Position numbers and translations under genes: made by a program
DNA from: a virus
Reading direction: 5' to 3' (one strand)
DNA: 20,840 nucleotides
IMG/VR virus record: IMGVR_UViG_3300011113_000650
Location: 1-20,840 of that record
Shown here: positions 13,755 through 19,437 of the stretch, in pieces
Position numbering within the stretch: the stretch's first letter is position 1
Layout: each line of letters begins with the position of its first letter
The notes under the pieces: generated by a model
What the model was told of the DNA's origin: nothing
Databases searched by the model: none
The model's input: the letters and a program-made list of their open reading frames with translations, nothing else

Positions 13755-14257
13755 ATATTGTTCTCCTTTAGTGGATAGGAATCTAATACACCTTTCATCC
13801 ACTCAAGATTTGGTAGAACATAATGAATTTTTAATCCTGATAATTCTATAAATTGATCAAAAACTTTTTGTTCATTGTGATCAAATAAATGAGTTCCATG
13901 AGACTGTAGCATATATACTTCGCTAATTCCTTCTTGCCATAGACTCATTATACAACTATTGCAACTTTGACCAGTAATGTATGCTATTCCGTCGTCTGGT
14001 CTAATAACACAATTAGCTAGAGCATTTCTTTCCGCATGAATCATCCATGAATATTTATATGGTCTATTTGTTGGTAATTTACTATCGTCTAGACCCCTAG
14101 GAAAATCATTATATCCTATTCCTAGTACTCTATTTTTTCTATCAGTAATCACACATCCGTGTTGGGTATGAATATCATGGCTTTTTTGGGATATTATTTT
14201 GGCTAGTCCCAGATAATAATCTATCCAATTATCACAGCGAATATATTGATTTTCCAT
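13751..14257 (-). CDS. dCMP deaminase
   Basis: This is a 168-aa cytidine-deaminase-fold protein. The zinc site is His74-Ala-Glu76 (HAERNALANC) plus Cys99 and Cys102 (GQSCNSC), with the usual P before the first Cys replaced. Upstream signatures (HDIHTQHGCVITDRKNRVLG, GYNDFPRG) are typical of deoxycytidylate deaminases. It turns dCMP into dUMP, feeding dTMP synthesis. It leads the nrdB-nrdA-mazG run. The ATG at 14257 has AGGA 7 nt upstream, only a couple of bases after the 3' end of the tRNA gene, so tRNA and enzyme share a transcript. No thymidylate synthase is visible in the window. Confidence 0.93.
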   Translation of the reverse strand: MENQYIRCDNWIDYYLGLAKIISQKSHDIHTQHGCVITDRKNRVLGIGYNDFPRGLDDSKLPTNRPYKYSWMIHAERNALANCVIRPDDGIAYITGQSCNSCIMSLWQEGISEVYMLQSHGTHLFDHNEQKVFDQFIELSGLKIHYVLPNLEWMKGVLDSYPLKENNI

Positions 14258-14271
14258 AATTTATTCCTGAA

Positions 14272-14344
14272 AGCAAGAGATGGGAGTCGAACCCACAACC
14301 ATCAGATTGGAAATCTAACGCTCTACCAATTGAGCTACTCTTGC
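14272..14344 (-). tRNA. tRNA-Gly (anticodon UCC)
   Basis: A full cloverleaf is readable on the minus strand. The acceptor is GCAAGAG with CTCTTGC, the D arm is GCTC/GAGC, and the anticodon stem is TTAGA/TCTGA with loop TTTCCAA. That gives anticodon TCC in positions 34-36. The T arm is GTGGG, TTCGACT, CCCAT. The discriminator base is U, as usual for bacterial tRNA-Gly. CCA is not encoded. It reads GGA and GGG codons, which could help translate phage codons rare in the host. It sits between two protein genes in one transcription unit. Confidence 0.96.
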
Positions 14345-14350
14345 GTTATA

Positions 14351-14563
14351 TTACTTATCCTCGATATTTATCCAACCAATAATAGATCCTGTGCCCGTTA
14401 GAGCCGCACCAGTATATATAATTTCAGCTTTTCCAATGGGCTCCCAGTTACAGTTTACGGCTTTATAAATACACATTATTTCGCCAATAATAGCTAGTAC
14501 CGGAATGCAGAATAGTAGAGTTGACAACATAACTATTAGTAGATAACCAAAAAAATCTTTCAT
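14351..14563 (-). CDS. Small two-helix membrane protein
   Basis: The start is taken as the second ATG (14563), because AGAAGG lies 6 nt before it; the first ATG (14569) abuts that site. The 70-aa product has a hydrophobic N-terminal helix (FFGYLLIVMLSTLLFCIPVL) running into IIGEIMCIYKAV, then a second hydrophobic stretch (EIIYTGAALTGTGSIIGWI). It is the first gene after the consensus promoter at 14606-14634 and lies 6 nt before the tRNA. It is an inner-membrane protein by composition; family not recognised. Confidence 0.7.
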   Translation of the reverse strand: MKDFFGYLLIVMLSTLLFCIPVLAIIGEIMCIYKAVNCNWEPIGKAEIIYTGAALTGTGSIIGWINIEDK

Positions 14564-14605
14564 TTTCATCCTTCTATAAGATAGTTTTCAGACCGTAGAC
14601 CTATC

Positions 14606-14634
14606 ATTATATCCGATGGGAGGAAGGATGTCAA
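14606..14634 (-). promoter_or_regulatory. Consensus sigma-70 promoter
   Basis: On the minus strand a perfect -35 box TTGACA (14634-14629) is followed by exactly 17 bp and a perfect -10 box TATAAT (14611-14606). Transcription should start near 14599. The -35 box overlaps the stop codon of the GlsB/YeaQ-like gene. The first gene read is the 70-aa membrane protein, then tRNA-Gly, dCMP deaminase, nrdB, nrdA and mazG. A 12 of 12 match with ideal spacing in the longest non-coding gap of this stretch is very unlikely by chance, and implies use of the host housekeeping polymerase. Confidence 0.9.
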
Positions 14635-14879
14635 TTCTTTTCCGAAAGCTTGTTAAACACTATTAGAGCTAGTATGGAACCCGCGACACCCATAACGACA
14701 CCCGTTGGGCCAAGCGGAGTTAATCCTAGTAGATAGTTTACAGCGCCTCCAACATATGATCCGGCGACTCCTAATGCTACCGTTTTCCAAAAACCAAAAT
14801 TTTCGTCCCCAGGTACTATGCTTTTAGCCACGCTACCTACAAATAACCCATAAACTCCCCAAATCAGTAAACTAAGCAT
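14631..14879 (-). CDS. GlsB/YeaQ/YmgE-like membrane protein
   Basis: This is an 82-aa protein with three hydrophobic segments: LSLLIWGVYGLFVGSVAKSI, a glycine-rich middle (VALGVAGSYVGGAVNYLLG), and a final helix (GVVMGVAGSILALIVF). The pattern of a first helix ending in an A-K-x-x-x-P-G loop (AKSIVPGDENFG) followed by W-x-T and a GxxGxxxGG helix is characteristic of the transglycosylase-associated / GlsB stress family. These are short inner-membrane proteins of unclear function in bacteria. It overlaps the upstream gene by 8 nt and has AAGGA 7 nt before its ATG. In this phage it may alter the host membrane; that is inference. Confidence 0.75.
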   Translation of the reverse strand: MLSLLIWGVYGLFVGSVAKSIVPGDENFGFWKTVALGVAGSYVGGAVNYLLGLTPLGPTGVVMGVAGSILALIVFNKLSEKN

Positions 14880-15264
14880 AATATAATCCTTCTACGAGTG
14901 TTTTTACATCTTCATCACTAATATTTTGACCATACTCTATAAGGCTATTTGTTAATGCAAATTGATATTGTTCGTATAAATCGGGCGGTAGTTCTTTTTT
15001 AATTAATTTTTTTATTCTTACTTTGGTCCAAAAACCTCTTTTTGAACTCAAATCTCTTATTTCTTTTGAATACAAATCATATATATCTTTTTTATCTTTA
15101 ATGCTAGATAGTTCAGATTTATTACATTCTTGTATAATTCTAATAATTGTTAGAACAATACTAATAACAGATAAAACTATCAATACGCTACCAAAATTTT
15201 GTGTTGGTTTAAGATCGCTTTTTTGAACAATTTGATTAGCAATATCTTCTAATTTTTTTCTCAT
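14872..15264 (-). CDS. Membrane-anchored hypothetical protein, 130 aa
   Basis: The protein has a short cytoplasmic helix, one transmembrane segment (about 24-43: FGSVLIVLSVISIVLTIIRI), and a charged domain of about 85 residues. That domain is rich in Lys and Asp (IKDKKDIYDLYSKEIRDL, VRIKKLIKKELPPDLYEQY). The loop order suggests a single-span protein, with topology unclear. It begins 1 nt after the stop of the exported Cys-motif gene and overlaps the GlsB-like gene by 8 nt. No family is recognised. Confidence 0.7.
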   Translation of the reverse strand: MRKKLEDIANQIVQKSDLKPTQNFGSVLIVLSVISIVLTIIRIIQECNKSELSSIKDKKDIYDLYSKEIRDLSSKRGFWTKVRIKKLIKKELPPDLYEQYQFALTNSLIEYGQNISDEDVKTLVEGLYYA

Positions 15265-15265
15265 A

Positions 15266-15592
15266 TTATCTTCTTATAATAATACTTTTAGGAGGTTGAG
15301 CATTAGGAACAGAACATGTGCCACTAGCACAGTTTTCAGGAGAAGCTCCGATTTTTTTATTTGGAGGAATACAATACTGACATTCTGTTGTATTTAATTT
15401 ATCGCCAGAAACTACCTTGCCAGTACCCTTGCATACTGGACAGTCTTTTCTAAGAGGCTTTTTTTCTTCTTGTTGAATATTTCTGGCTTTAATTATACCT
15501 CCAGCAAGAACAACTCCAGCTTTTGTAGAAACATCATATGATATAGAAGAAAATGCTAGAGATAATATTCCTAATGCAAATAACTTATTCAT
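15266..15592 (-). CDS. Exported protein with a DnaJ-like Cys motif
   Basis: This is a 108-aa protein with a signal peptide (MNKLFALGILSLAFSSISYD). It then has CPVCKGTGKV (residues 51-60), the C-x-x-C-x-G-x-G unit of DnaJ-type zinc fingers, and a second pair in TECQYC. Together these can form one four-Cys zinc site. Two further Cys occur near the end (ENCASGTCSV). DnaJ fingers normally act in the cytoplasm, so a secreted version is odd and the cysteines might be disulfide-bonded in the periplasm. Start ATG at 15592 with AAGG 7 nt upstream, inside the end of the 57-aa gene. Function unknown. Confidence 0.72.
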   Translation of the reverse strand: MNKLFALGILSLAFSSISYDVSTKAGVVLAGGIIKARNIQQEEKKPLRKDCPVCKGTGKVVSGDKLNTTECQYCIPPNKKIGASPENCASGTCSVPNAQPPKSIIIRR

Positions 15593-15758
15593 TGAATAGC
15601 CTTTTTAGTAATTTTTTACGAACTGGTTTATGATTATCCGTTTTTGTTTCAGGTGGAGTTTCTTCGGTCTTTTTAAGATACATATCGCACAATTTTTTAA
15701 TAAAATCCAATATTGTATGAAATAATCTGTTTAATACGATTCTATCTAATAATCTCAT
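15585..15758 (-). CDS. 57-aa amphipathic small protein
   Basis: This complete frame is short enough to escape a 60-codon cutoff. The ATG at 15758 overlaps the TGA of the cysteine peptidase (ATGA), and GAGG lies 7 nt upstream. The stop at 15585 overlaps the next gene by 8 nt. It exactly fills a gap that would otherwise be empty in a densely packed operon. The product starts MRLLDRIVLNRLFHTILDFI, an amphipathic or weakly hydrophobic helix with a single Cys at residue 24. It then has a Pro/Thr/Glu linker and a basic tail ending KKLLKRLFNE. It might bind membranes or the adjacent peptidase. No family is recognised. Confidence 0.75.
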   Translation of the reverse strand: MRLLDRIVLNRLFHTILDFIKKLCDMYLKKTEETPPETKTDNHKPVRKKLLKRLFNE

Positions 15759-16678
15759 GAGTAGTCCTCAAAACCATAGGATTTTAATTTTTGTGGAGGA
15801 AAGCCATCAAAATTGCTAAAAGCATAAGCTCCATTTTGTCGTAGCATACCGGCGGCGACTTCTGCTCTGATTAAAAAAGAACCGTCTGGAATTGGACCCC
15901 ATTCTGGATGACCTCCCGAATTCCAGATTCCCCAGCTATTTTGTACTAAAAACGATGGCTCGTTACCGGTGTCGTCGCAAGCCACCCAGGCCATAGCATG
16001 AGCCCACGACCCTTGTGGTTTAGCAAATCCCTTGCTATCTCTTCTATTACTAAAACCATACATACTACAAACACTGATACCGTAACCATTAGCAAGAGCA
16101 TCTCTAGCCTCTTCTATGGTTCTGATAAGTGAAACTGTTTTAATTTGATGATCATTAGCTAAATCTAATACTTTGTCTGGAACTCCCCTGGTGCCCCAAT
16201 TAGCCCCTATAACGCCGTTATATTTTGATAAGTCTACAACTCCGTAATTTTTTCTAACTAAAATACCACCAGCTTTACTAACGAATTCAGAGGCTCTGGA
16301 ACAACTCATTCCGCCGCCTCCGTGGCCCCTAAAACCGTAAATAGCTTCTGTGGCTCCGCGAGCATCCCAATTTTCTCTTTGGCCCTGTACGTCAATTTCA
16401 ACGGCTCTAGATACATCACAGGCGTGTCTGGTGGCGTGACTAACGCAATCTGGTTCTGTTTGTCTTTCGCTAAAAGCCTTTTTATCAAATTTTAATACGC
16501 TTTTGTACGGTAGACTAAGTTTACCTTTGCCAGAATTTGTTATTTTTCTAGAAGCATCTCCAAACATAGGATGTTTTAGAGTACCCATAAAATAATCAAA
16601 ATGATGGGGTTCGTAAATACATCCCTGAACACCCTTTTTGTATAGATTTAATAGATCTTCTGGAGAGTATCTTGGCAT
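15755..16678 (-). CDS. Papain-fold (C1-like) cysteine peptidase
   Basis: This is a 307-aa protein with all landmarks of papain-type peptidases in order: Gln73 (oxyanion hole) and nucleophile Cys78 in RQTEPDCVSHATRHACD, His227 in SWAHAMAWVACDD, and Asn247 in VQNSWGIWNSGG. A glycine-rich segment (GFRGHGGGGMSCSRASEF) lies between Cys and His. The N-terminal 70 residues could be a short propeptide or a targeting region; no signal peptide is seen. C1-type peptidases are rare in phages. Possible roles are virion maturation, cleavage of host proteins or cell-wall peptides, or inhibition of host defences. It starts at the ATG at 16678 with AAGGTAAC just upstream, and is coupled to the 57-aa gene. Its neighbours are nearly all membrane or exported proteins. 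Confidence 0.88.
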   Translation of the reverse strand: MPRYSPEDLLNLYKKGVQGCIYEPHHFDYFMGTLKHPMFGDASRKITNSGKGKLSLPYKSVLKFDKKAFSERQTEPDCVSHATRHACDVSRAVEIDVQGQRENWDARGATEAIYGFRGHGGGGMSCSRASEFVSKAGGILVRKNYGVVDLSKYNGVIGANWGTRGVPDKVLDLANDHQIKTVSLIRTIEEARDALANGYGISVCSMYGFSNRRDSKGFAKPQGSWAHAMAWVACDDTGNEPSFLVQNSWGIWNSGGHPEWGPIPDGSFLIRAEVAAGMLRQNGAYAFSNFDGFPPQKLKSYGFEDYS

Positions 16679-16687
16679 AATGTTACC

Positions 16688-17185
16688 TTATTTTGAAGCC
16701 TTGTGCCATGCCCACGCTATTGATTGGAATGCTTCCACAGCCTTTTTTCTAAGTTCATCATTTAATTGAACAGAATCGTCGCCAATCGCCGTAACCACGA
16801 GTGAGCGAGAGTTTTCAGCATAGTTGGGATATTTACCTTTAATATCCAAATTTATTAGTAAAGCACTCAAAGAATTTGCTTGCTTAATTTCTTCTGTATT
16901 TTTTATAACAACATCTTTATCTCCATCTAAAGAAATAAGGGTTGCTATATCTAGATAAAAGTCTTGCATTACTTTTGCATCTTTTTTACAGTCTGAATTA
17001 ACAACTAGACTTTCTACTATTTTTTCAGCATGTGCTATTAGATAATCGGGAGGACTTGGTGGAGCTATAGAATCAATAGTAGTATTAGTAGATGGTTTTC
17101 TATATATAAAATTTGTTTTTGATAATCCAAGAAAAAGTAAAGAAAGTCCTAAAGCTAAAACAATAAAATTTTTATTTGAGTTCAT
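16688..17185 (-). CDS. Signal-anchored hypothetical protein, 165 aa
   Basis: I take the ATG at 17185 (MNSNKNFIVLALGLSLLFLG), which gives a classic N-terminal anchor at residues 6-21; an ATG at 17212 would add nine residues with no ribosome site. After a Pro/Ser/Thr-rich linker (PSTNTTIDSIAPPSPPD) comes a helical domain to the C-terminus (EKIVESLVVNSDCKKDAKVM through AVEAFQSIAWAWHKA). Probably a periplasmic domain held by an uncleaved anchor. It overlaps the upstream gene by 14 nt and ends 9 nt before the cysteine peptidase, of which it might be a partner or substrate. Family not recognised. Confidence 0.7.
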   Translation of the reverse strand: MNSNKNFIVLALGLSLLFLGLSKTNFIYRKPSTNTTIDSIAPPSPPDYLIAHAEKIVESLVVNSDCKKDAKVMQDFYLDIATLISLDGDKDVVIKNTEEIKQANSLSALLINLDIKGKYPNYAENSRSLVVTAIGDDSVQLNDELRKKAVEAFQSIAWAWHKASK

Positions 17186-17567
17186 TAGTTTTACTTTCTG
17201 ATAATGAAGCATTTAGACTAGGAAAAAGTTTATCCATTAATTCTACCGCCTGTTTATTTTTGCAGTTTTCTGCCAAATCTCTAGTATGTTTCCAAGATAC
17301 TATTAATTCTACAAATGAATCGGATACTGGTTTCTTTTCTGATACAACAGAAGATAGTACTGTTTGTGGATTTGCCACATCACTAGATGGTTTGGATAAT
17401 GTTTGTTTGGACTTGGAAACTAAATCTGTAACTAATTTCTTTAGTCCGCCCAGCTTGTCCTGGAACAGAAAATACAACAGTAATCCGGCACCAGCATATA
17501 GGAATAAATCTGATGTTGATAAACCAGCAGAAAAATCATCAAATGTTTGAGTAAAAAGTTCATTCAT
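17172..17567 (-). CDS. Membrane-anchored hypothetical protein, 131 aa
   Basis: The protein has one transmembrane helix near the N-terminus (about 20-36, DLFLYAGAGLLLYFLFQD) and then an apparently cytoplasmic, Ser/Lys/Val-rich linker. The C-terminal helical part contains a possible conserved core (VSWKHTRDLAENCKNKQAVE). The ATG at 17567 has AAGGA 7 nt upstream. It overlaps the 165-aa anchored protein by 14 nt, so the two may form a membrane complex. No family is recognised. Confidence 0.72.
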   Translation of the reverse strand: MNELFTQTFDDFSAGLSTSDLFLYAGAGLLLYFLFQDKLGGLKKLVTDLVSKSKQTLSKPSSDVANPQTVLSSVVSEKKPVSDSFVELIVSWKHTRDLAENCKNKQAVELMDKLFPSLNASLSESKTNELK

Positions 17568-17571
17568 ATTA

Positions 17572-17979
17572 TTATCCTTTGTTAACTAAAAGAGAATTGA
17601 CTGTTCCATCCTTGGAAAAAACACCTAGATCCTTAAATGTATCTACCGCAGCATCTATAGAAGCAGCAACAAATATCATAACAATCTTTTTGACGTAAGA
17701 ATGTAAAACCGATTCTAATATTTGCGGAACAAAAGGAACATCTACTACCTTAAATACACCGTCATAAAAATCTGATACAATTTTTAATACAAGTTCTTTT
17801 CTTTCTGTTTTAGCAACATCTTTACCAAAAACTTGCATCACATAAACACAACTATTTGTCAGTTTGTTTAGGGTTTTCCACGCTTCGTTTAGGGCCACCC
17901 TTCTTACCTCTGCTAGACTTTCTTTTGCTTGTATTGACACTTTTTGTAGTTCCACTAGTGCTATTTCTGATGGACTCAT
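17572..17979 (-). CDS. Hypothetical protein, 135 aa, overlapping the holin-like gene
   Basis: Start ATG at 17979 with GGAGA 5 nt upstream, which is a good ribosome site even though it lies inside the preceding gene. The first 128 nt are shared with the 3' end of the holin-like gene in another frame. The product is helical and fairly hydrophobic (VYVMQVFGKDVAKTERKELV; DVPFVPQILESVLHSYVKKI; MIFVAASIDAAVDTFKDLGV) and may associate with membranes, though no segment is a clear transmembrane helix. Not recognised. Confidence 0.72.
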   Translation of the reverse strand: MSPSEIALVELQKVSIQAKESLAEVRRVALNEAWKTLNKLTNSCVYVMQVFGKDVAKTERKELVLKIVSDFYDGVFKVVDVPFVPQILESVLHSYVKKIVMIFVAASIDAAVDTFKDLGVFSKDGTVNSLLVNKG

Positions 17980-18202
17980 TTAACATCTCCTTTTTTATAT
18001 GTAATCTACTATTAACATATTTATATAAAATAACTAATTGACCACCTATCAATATACAAGACTCTACTCCATGACTAACATCTCTGATAAGATCTTCTTT
18101 TTTCTCAAAATCTCCAATAATACCCAATAGAAATAGTCCACTAAAGATAAAACTAACTAAAGTAAACCAAAATTCACTAGTTTTGTAGCCCGGTTTGTTC
18201 AT
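17852..18202 (-). CDS. Holin-like two-helix membrane protein
   Basis: This is a 116-aa protein starting NKPGYKTSEFWFTLVSFIFS. A K-x-G-Y-K-T-x-E-F-W opening immediately before a hydrophobic helix is common among small phage proteins annotated as putative holins. Helix 1 is about 11-29 and helix 2 about 47-64 (ESCILIGGQLVILYKYV). The remaining about 50 residues are a very basic, Ser/Thr/Gly-rich tail (KSVNTSKRKSSRGKKGGPKR), typical of a cytoplasmic holin tail but unusually long. That tail is encoded almost entirely in the 128-nt overlap with the next gene. It would form or regulate membrane holes at lysis. There is no recognisable endolysin beside it, so the call is tentative. Confidence 0.65.
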   Translation of the reverse strand: MNKPGYKTSEFWFTLVSFIFSGLFLLGIIGDFEKKEDLIRDVSHGVESCILIGGQLVILYKYVNSRLHIKKEMLNESIRNSTSGTTKSVNTSKRKSSRGKKGGPKRSVENPKQTDK

Positions 18203-18203
18203 A

Positions 18204-18470
18204 TTAGTTTAATCCAGACGGATAACTCTTAACAAAAATACCATTATAGAATCTGTTACCATATTTATCGTCCAATACCGATATTGCTGGAGTGCTATAA
18301 ATATTGTTGTGATATCCAAAAACACCACTAACTCCAGATACTGTATTTTGCGGACCTATTTGTTCATATTCAAAAAAACCTGTGACTGTGGCATTTGTTA
18401 CAATTCCACCATTTTTAATAGTAACCCCAGATTTTGCAACAGTTATATCGGTATATGGTCTAGTTGGCAT
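18204..18470 (-). CDS. Hypothetical beta-rich protein, 88 aa
   Basis: The product is rich in Gly, Val, Thr and Asn, with alternating hydrophobic patterns suggesting beta structure (TVAKSGVTIKNGGIVTNATV, GVSGVFGYHNNIYS). It has no signal peptide or membrane helix. The ATG at 18470 has AAGGT 6 nt upstream and the stop is 1 nt before the holin-like gene. Such composition is compatible with a small virion surface or decoration protein. No family is recognised. Confidence 0.68.
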   Translation of the reverse strand: MPTRPYTDITVAKSGVTIKNGGIVTNATVTGFFEYEQIGPQNTVSGVSGVFGYHNNIYSTPAISVLDDKYGNRFYNGIFVKSYPSGLN

Positions 18471-18480
18471 AGGTTAACCT

Positions 18481-18792
18481 TTATGTTTGAGATTCTATTC
18501 TGTTTTCTATTGATTCTAGTGTTTTACTAAGCACGGCCAATTGAGTTTTTAGTTCCATCATAACCTCGGTGTTTCGTTGTAATGCTGATGCAAACTGAAT
18601 TTGTGTTTCTTTATGAGTATTTAGCTTTTCCATAATATATTGTTTATCATTTACATATGGAGATTGAGTTTCTATAAGTTTAATGATCTCTTCTTTGGAT
18701 AATAAATTTTTACCCACAGTAAGCCAAAAGCCAACTCCAGCAATTATAATACCTACGGATGTTGTACCAACATATTCCCAAATTTGTGTCAT
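18481..18792 (-). CDS. Membrane-anchored coiled-coil protein, 103 aa
   Basis: I place the start at the ATG at 18792 (MTQIWEYVGTTSVG), which has GAGG 9 nt upstream. The longer frame (ATG at 18822) would begin inside the terminator hairpin and has no ribosome site. The N-terminus contains one transmembrane helix (about 10-27, TSVGIIIAGVGFWLTVG). The rest is soluble and ends in a coiled-coil-like stretch (MMELKTQLAVLSKTLESIEN). It is the first gene after the terminator and close to the holin-like gene. The layout resembles inner-membrane spanins or small holin accessory proteins, but no Pro-rich linker or partner lipoprotein is seen. Confidence 0.72.
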   Translation of the reverse strand: MTQIWEYVGTTSVGIIIAGVGFWLTVGKNLLSKEEIIKLIETQSPYVNDKQYIMEKLNTHKETQIQFASALQRNTEVMMELKTQLAVLSKTLESIENRIESQT

Positions 18793-18873: not shown

Positions 18874-19437
18874 TCAGCCAGTTTTGGCCTTGTAATCGTT
18901 GTTTCTCACTGGCACGCCACCCCTAACATATACCAAATCTCCTGGCGATGTTCTACTTGGAATAGAGGCATTATCAGTACCGAGACTATCTACTGCTACT
19001 GTTGGTGCAGAACTAAATGTACCAGTAACAATATTCCAGGTGCCCGCTCTAATAGCAGTAGTAACTCTACGAGTTCTAAGAGTTTCTAGTTTGTGAATAC
19101 TTCTAGTTAAACTAGGAACATTAGAAGCATTTCGTAGTGCTGTTGATGCTACGCCAGCCAAAGTAGTAGTAACCAAAGCGGTAATAGGAGTTCTTGCACT
19201 ATAGCGGAATGTTCCGGCTGTTAATGCTTTTCCGGCATAATCTTTAACTGTTACAGAATCTTCGATTACTGTTGAACCAAATACGCCAGCATTATATCTT
19301 GTAACAGATACATTGGATAGTAGTCCAGATGCAAGCGATCCACCCCTTGTTGTGGAGCCACCTTTATTTTTTGCTCCACTACCAGTCACGTTTGGAGGTA
19401 GTGTATATGCTGATCCGTTTGTTTTTGCTTCTGCCAT
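18874..19437 (-). CDS. Gly/Ser/Thr-rich hypothetical protein, 187 aa, possibly structural
   Basis: The protein is unusually rich in Thr, Ser, Ala, Gly and Val and contains no Cys. It has a flexible N-terminus (AYTLPPNVTGSGAKNKGGST) followed by beta-type segments (SVTRYNAGVFGSTVIEDSV, FRYSARTPITALVTTTLAGV, AGTWNIVTGTFSSAPTVAV). It has an excellent ribosome site (GGAGA before ATG 19437), its own leader hairpin (19455-19481) and its own terminator (18810-18842). It therefore appears to be a separately controlled and possibly highly expressed gene. This fits a virion component such as a decoration, head or tail protein, but no family is recognised. Confidence 0.75.
   Translation of the reverse strand: MAEAKTNGSAYTLPPNVTGSGAKNKGGSTTRGGSLASGLLSNVSVTRYNAGVFGSTVIEDSVTVKDYAGKALTAGTFRYSARTPITALVTTTLAGVASTALRNASNVPSLTRSIHKLETLRTRRVTTAIRAGTWNIVTGTFSSAPTVAVDSLGTDNASIPSRTSPGDLVYVRGGVPVRNNDYKAKTG

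Follow-up and report, generated by a model that had tools for sequence, protein, structure and literature searches.

The window analysed here is a stretch of 20,840 bases from record IMGVR_UViG_3300011113_000650, whose recognisable genes lie on the minus strand. Positions 14351 to 18792 are occupied by twelve small open reading frames, all on the minus strand, flanked on one side by family 18, a 218-aa gene and a ClpP-like gene and on the other by a tRNA-Gly and a dCMP deaminase gene. Family 18 (18874..19437, minus strand; 187 aa) looks structural by eye and is linked to the module in both the lake and the marine groups of relatives described below. The ClpP gene of the window is located upstream of the module, unlike that of the marine relative G430, where a ClpP-like gene (gene 141, 121531-122184; L200), possibly encoding a head-maturation protease, is found just before the terminase gene. 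A plus-strand open reading frame at 14246-14401, which would encode an RDGSRTHN-like peptide, lies antisense to the tRNA-Gly region and is probably not a gene.

Using a strict hydropathy rule (a Kyte-Doolittle mean of ≥ 1.6 over 19 residues, or an N-terminus resembling a signal peptide), seven of the twelve products were classified as membrane or exported proteins. For comparison, three related phage genomes have 9-11% such genes (binomial P = 3e-5 to 9e-5), and the share inside the window itself is 25% (P = 0.014). The 131-aa and 135-aa proteins fall near the strict threshold (1.40 and 1.47, respectively), and at a relaxed threshold of 1.3 transmembrane (TM) segments are predicted in all homologues of both (family 0b, 54/54; family 0a, 54/54). 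The first-pass annotation, which had counted a signal peptide or TM helix in eight of eleven genes, was therefore a fair description, and its observation stands because of the difference from the three related genomes.

In the direction of reading, the 113-aa gene comes first; its start is probably at 18792, which gives a family 16 protein of 103 aa (18481..18792) with an N-terminal TM helix and a coiled coil. One TM segment is present in 41/41 relatives, a relative weakly matches phrog_1009 (unknown function), and the marine gene at this position has a C-terminal domain that appears PAS-like by eye. A small TM and coiled-coil protein encoded upstream of the peptidase at L103:4194-4769 carries a domain judged by eye to be PAS-like. 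Family 10 (18204..18470; 88 aa) is soluble, without TM segments, and is often followed by inserted fibre-like genes in relatives. Family 7 (17852..18202; 116 aa) combines two predicted TM helices, one strong and one weaker, with a strongly basic C-terminal tail; the window protein has no match in Pfam or PHROG and may be termed holin-like by its topology. Its gene overlaps by 128 bases with that of family 0a (17572..17979; 135 aa), a protein with a hydrophobic C-terminal half; next comes family 0b (17172..17567; 131 aa), with a weak N-terminal TM helix and a helical C-terminal part. The 174-aa gene downstream probably starts at 17185, giving a family 3 protein of 165 aa (16688..17185) in which an N-terminal membrane anchor, the single TM segment in 79/79 relatives, precedes a conserved domain, a layout that could be called spanin-like. 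Matches to holin families were weak (single weak hits and, in PHROG, one marginal match with E = 0.027), and the holins of the module are putative assignments made from topology.

Four families are encoded on the other side of the peptidase gene. Family 9 (15585..15758; 57 aa) has an amphipathic or weakly hydrophobic N-terminal helix and a basic C-terminus, and family 4 (15266..15592; 108 aa) a signal-like N-terminus and a CxxC-CxxC zinc-knuckle-like motif. Family 5 (14872..15264; 130 aa) has one TM segment near the N-terminus, conserved in 71/71 relatives, and a basic soluble domain. Family 6 (14631..14879; 82 aa) has three TM segments at the relaxed threshold, again in 71/71 relatives, and resembles Transgly_assoc proteins: the window protein falls short of the cut-off for PF04226 (GlsB/YeaQ/YmgE, Transgly_assoc) with an E value of 0.014, while eight members of the family alignment match at E ≤ 0.01 (best E = 1.7e-7). 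In the lake group, families 3 and 4 showed no lipobox; lipobox-like signals occur in some marine family 4 proteins. The last open reading frame, encoding a 72-aa one-TM protein (14351..14569), lacks homologues in 80 related loci and probably lies outside the conserved module.

The enzyme in the midst of these genes is a 307-aa protein (15755..16678, minus strand), identified as a C1A-type, papain-fold peptidase by its predicted fold and by the active-site residues Q73, C78, H227, and N247. These four residues are invariant across the 81 orthologues of a first set of relatives. The protein has neither a signal peptide nor a TM segment, and the latter is absent from 81/81 orthologues as well. 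In a second, mostly marine set of 84 peptidases, the Gln-to-Cys motif is present in 84/84, a strict His pattern in 70/84 and a strict Asn pattern in 80/84. A structure model based on a deep alignment (pLDDT 88, pTM 0.91) gave 176 fold matches in the PDB at E ≤ 1e-3, the best of which was xylellain; a first model, for which the input was limited to close orthologues, was of poor quality (pLDDT 45) and was discarded. Together, the predicted C1A fold and the invariant catalytic residues bear out the proposal that the window encodes a complete C1-type cysteine peptidase.

Sequence searches were far less informative. The peptidase matched no Pfam family at E ≤ 0.1, including the C1 peptidase family, and no PHROG, and a PDB sequence search, run with the protein itself and two profiles, yielded no convincing relative. 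The phage enzyme has the predicted fold and the Q-C-H-N set in common with the C1A family (papain, cathepsins, bacterial xylellain), but is too divergent to be recognized by Pfam or PDB sequence searches and sits in a phage operon. A tblastn search of 50,697 phage records with the peptidase and four of the small membrane proteins gave no match, and the peptidase was not found in cultured phages. The first-pass statement that papain-like peptidases are uncommon in phages nevertheless needs a qualifier, as a viral fold library contains other phage C1A proteins, one of them named peptidoglycan-binding, along with some weakly similar lysins. Those C1A proteins (from uncultured Caudovirales and Streptomyces phage Shady) share the fold, but identity in the matches is only ∼12-22%. 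Papain-fold phage lysins of the CHAP and NlpC/P60 types have a papain-like fold and the exit role proposed below in common with our peptidase; its fold matches, however, are to C1A proteins with an NSWG motif, and no CHAP domain was found in the records.

Relatives of the peptidase in IMG/VR comprise 133 close and 180 further stretches, two sets that may partly overlap, from lake and marine sources. The second set was reached via a relative with 53% identity to the peptidase. For brevity, 'lake' and 'marine' serve as labels, rather than as the habitat of each locus, for 80 related loci in the first set and for the second set, the seed contig of which comes from a SAR202 metagenome-assembled genome (MAG). 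The usual order in the lake loci is 7-0a-0b-3-peptidase-9-4-5-6, often preceded by fibre-like genes and followed by dCMP deaminase. Where enough flanking sequence is available, the partners are present in 77/77 (family 3), 71/71 (family 0), 65/71 (family 7), 59/72 (family 9), 68/72 (family 4), 62/69 (family 5), and 65/67 (family 6) lake loci. In the marine group the core is rearranged: the peptidase is found with families 4, 0b, 3 and often 5, accompanied by other small hydrophobic proteins. The SAR202 MAG carries the module a second time, in a more divergent form (peptidase, small membrane genes and family 4; L189), on a different contig. The cassette is thus genuine and conserved, and searches of the open-licence literature turned up no description of a comparable module. 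A peptidase without a signal peptide, with nucleotide-metabolism genes as downstream neighbours, would also suit an enzyme acting on host or phage proteins in the cytoplasm during host takeover, its membrane neighbours being unrelated; this is very unlikely, since the peptidase keeps its place among the membrane genes throughout the lake loci and in part also in the marine relatives.

By the general view, a lytic tailed phage requires a peptidoglycan-cutting enzyme in order to exit its host. In a survey of 224 jumbo phages, lysozyme-fold proteins were nearly universal (PMC7824862). The initial observation that the window lacks a standard endolysin holds well beyond it: Phage_lysozyme, Amidase_2, SLT, CHAP, and M23 domains were absent from 20 related records of 117-230 kb, among them those of L038 and L079, in searches for these five families (M15, GH19, GH25, and NlpC/P60 being outside this set) that gave matches in control genomes. 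One of these records, G002 (230,097 bases), is probably a complete genome, because its ends overlap by 115 bases. When 128 G002 proteins with a length of 85 aa or more, together with several large virion or fibre-like proteins, about half of its proteins, were scanned against Pfam, no peptidoglycan hydrolase appeared among the families listed, the best 25 of each part of the scan, with two and three weak families lying beyond the cut in two of the parts; about 60 proteins that by eye looked like known enzymes or structural proteins and all proteins below 85 aa were left out, and the tape-measure protein was covered by the family searches alone. A similar scan of a marine genome showed no peptidoglycan hydrolase among the best 25 families listed, with nine weak ones beyond the cut. 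The G002 scan did yield one trypsin and one subtilase, and a subtilase is present in 16/20 of the related records. An unrecognised peptidoglycan hydrolase is possible in these genomes.

The module can be compared with the holin-endolysin-spanin cassettes of tailed phages. Both have small TM proteins beside an enzyme without a signal peptide, downstream of fibre-like genes, and the module genes are clustered in the lake relatives as expected of such a cassette. On the other hand, the enzyme is a C1A-type protease, and the putative holins and spanins of the module are likened to known ones by topology and layout rather than homology. Because the defining peptidoglycan hydrolase was sought and not found, the module is not a canonical holin-endolysin-spanin cassette; it may still work like one. 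As none of the usual wall-cutting enzymes was found, lysis by these phages may proceed through an attack on the protein of the host wall and not on its peptidoglycan.

We therefore propose, with about an even chance of being right, that the module is a lysis (egress) cassette: a cytoplasmic C1A protease would take the place of the endolysin, be released by holin-like proteins and be aided by exported thiol proteins that open a disulfide-linked protein wall. Late in infection, the inner membrane would be permeabilised by holin-like proteins, represented in the window by family 7 and in the marine relatives by two other small hydrophobic families. The signal-less peptidase would then exit and cut wall protein or peptide cross-links, assisted by the one-TM and exported partners (families 3, 4, 5, and 6), with family 4 keeping the thiol protease reduced and opening wall disulfides. 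Lysis genes usually sit near, and downstream of, fibre genes, and fibre-like genes are found upstream of the module. The group is known from uncultured phages alone, and it is from its genes that we infer the lysis role, as well as the identity of the holin, the timing, the substrate, the reducing role and a planctomycete host. The weak holin matches count against this reading, as do the lysozyme sensitivity of planctomycete peptidoglycan, a paralogue without the catalytic Cys beside a fibre-like gene and the MAG bins, which point elsewhere (see below). Of the earlier suggestion of an envelope-directed module for lysis or membrane remodelling, the envelope part is thus supported by the C1A-type peptidase, the conserved membrane proteins and the lack of a usual endolysin in the records searched, and its lysis part is put forward conditionally.

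The neighbourhood also allows a reading in which the peptidase, along with part of the small proteins, is packaged or tail-associated and opens the envelope from outside or processes virion proteins. Besides the linkage to fibre-like genes and to the structural-looking family 18, this reading draws on a paralogue of the peptidase (515-627 aa) found downstream of family 6 in about ten loci (L036, L038, L046, L048, L051, L052, L057, L064, L067, and L079), which has lost the catalytic Cys, has gained a Cys-rich insert, and in most of these loci is followed by a fibre-like gene, hinting that the papain fold can also have a binding or virion role. We nonetheless consider a virion or entry function fairly unlikely: the terminase-capsid-tail block of the complete genome is on the opposite strand and distant from the module, the ClpP-like gene just before terL in the marine relative is a better candidate for head maturation, and several one-TM and three-TM proteins would be atypical virion components of a tailed phage. 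A role as prohead protease was set aside, as the peptidase is not encoded among the head genes around portal and capsid.

Alternatively, the membrane proteins and the protease could alter host surface proteins without lysis, in envelope remodelling or superinfection control. The diverse small membrane proteins exceed a minimal lysis set, and the exported thiol protein and the Transgly_assoc-like family 6 would be at home in such a function. It is unlikely, however, in view of the tight linkage of the genes and because, with no recognised lysis enzyme found, lysis would otherwise be left without a candidate.

A specific form of the lysis proposal concerns the thiol chemistry of the module. In many marine relatives, the gene directly downstream of the peptidase encodes an exported protein with a thioredoxin-type CxxC domain. 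This domain is present in 24/26 long marine family 4 members and the motif downstream of the peptidase in 32/71 marine loci; Pfam thioredoxin matches were obtained for one protein of the marine genome, and family 4 of the lake group, including the window, is without the domain. Published work describes the envelopes of Planctomyces as made of cysteine-rich protein joined by disulfides (PMC3035269), although planctomycetes also possess lysozyme-sensitive peptidoglycan (PMC4432640). A reductant combined with a thiol protease would suit a disulfide-held protein wall. The thioredoxin fusion fits other envelope roles too, and that an exported thioredoxin-type protein and a papain protease reduce and cleave the wall of planctomycete-like hosts, with no peptidoglycan hydrolase involved, is a possible but rather doubtful scheme.

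Genes for DUF1501 proteins, found in 15/34 phage records (12 of these in the marine set), hint at planctomycete-type hosts. This family is strongly expanded in planctomycetes and relatives, and the best match of one phage DUF1501 protein in a plasmid set was from Singulisphaera, a planctomycete. Moreover, the N-terminus of one subtilase resembles, by eye and by pattern, the planctomycete LEPR-XLL export signal. Perhaps, then, these phages infect planctomycete-type bacteria; the host is presumptive because two relatives belong to MAGs binned as Flavobacteriales and SAR202, bins that disagree with each other. Dehalococcoidia hosts were rejected: the only match among 393 genomes of this class was the SAR202 MAG itself (two contigs), which makes mis-binning likely.

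If the lysis proposal is true, these widespread large phages, which share a conserved protease module and in which no peptidoglycan hydrolase was found, would be an exception to the general view of phage exit. The module would then provide a new kind of candidate lytic enzyme and a testable way to study how phages kill bacteria whose walls are unusual, as well as the disputed protein wall of planctomycetes.

The related genomes have further features of their own. The tape-measure protein of G002 (gene 271, 178748-196336; L090-L091) is 5862 aa long, implying a very long tail; its counterpart in G012 has 1958 aa. The major capsid protein encoded at L083:2719-3726 matches gp27 of Bacillus phage G (PDB 6wkk, E = 4.6e-9; 21% identity by tblastn). 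Finally, genes 195 and 196 of G002 (L087:4210-5135) encode tandem SET-domain proteins, with Pfam SET matched in two members and the position assigned by eye.
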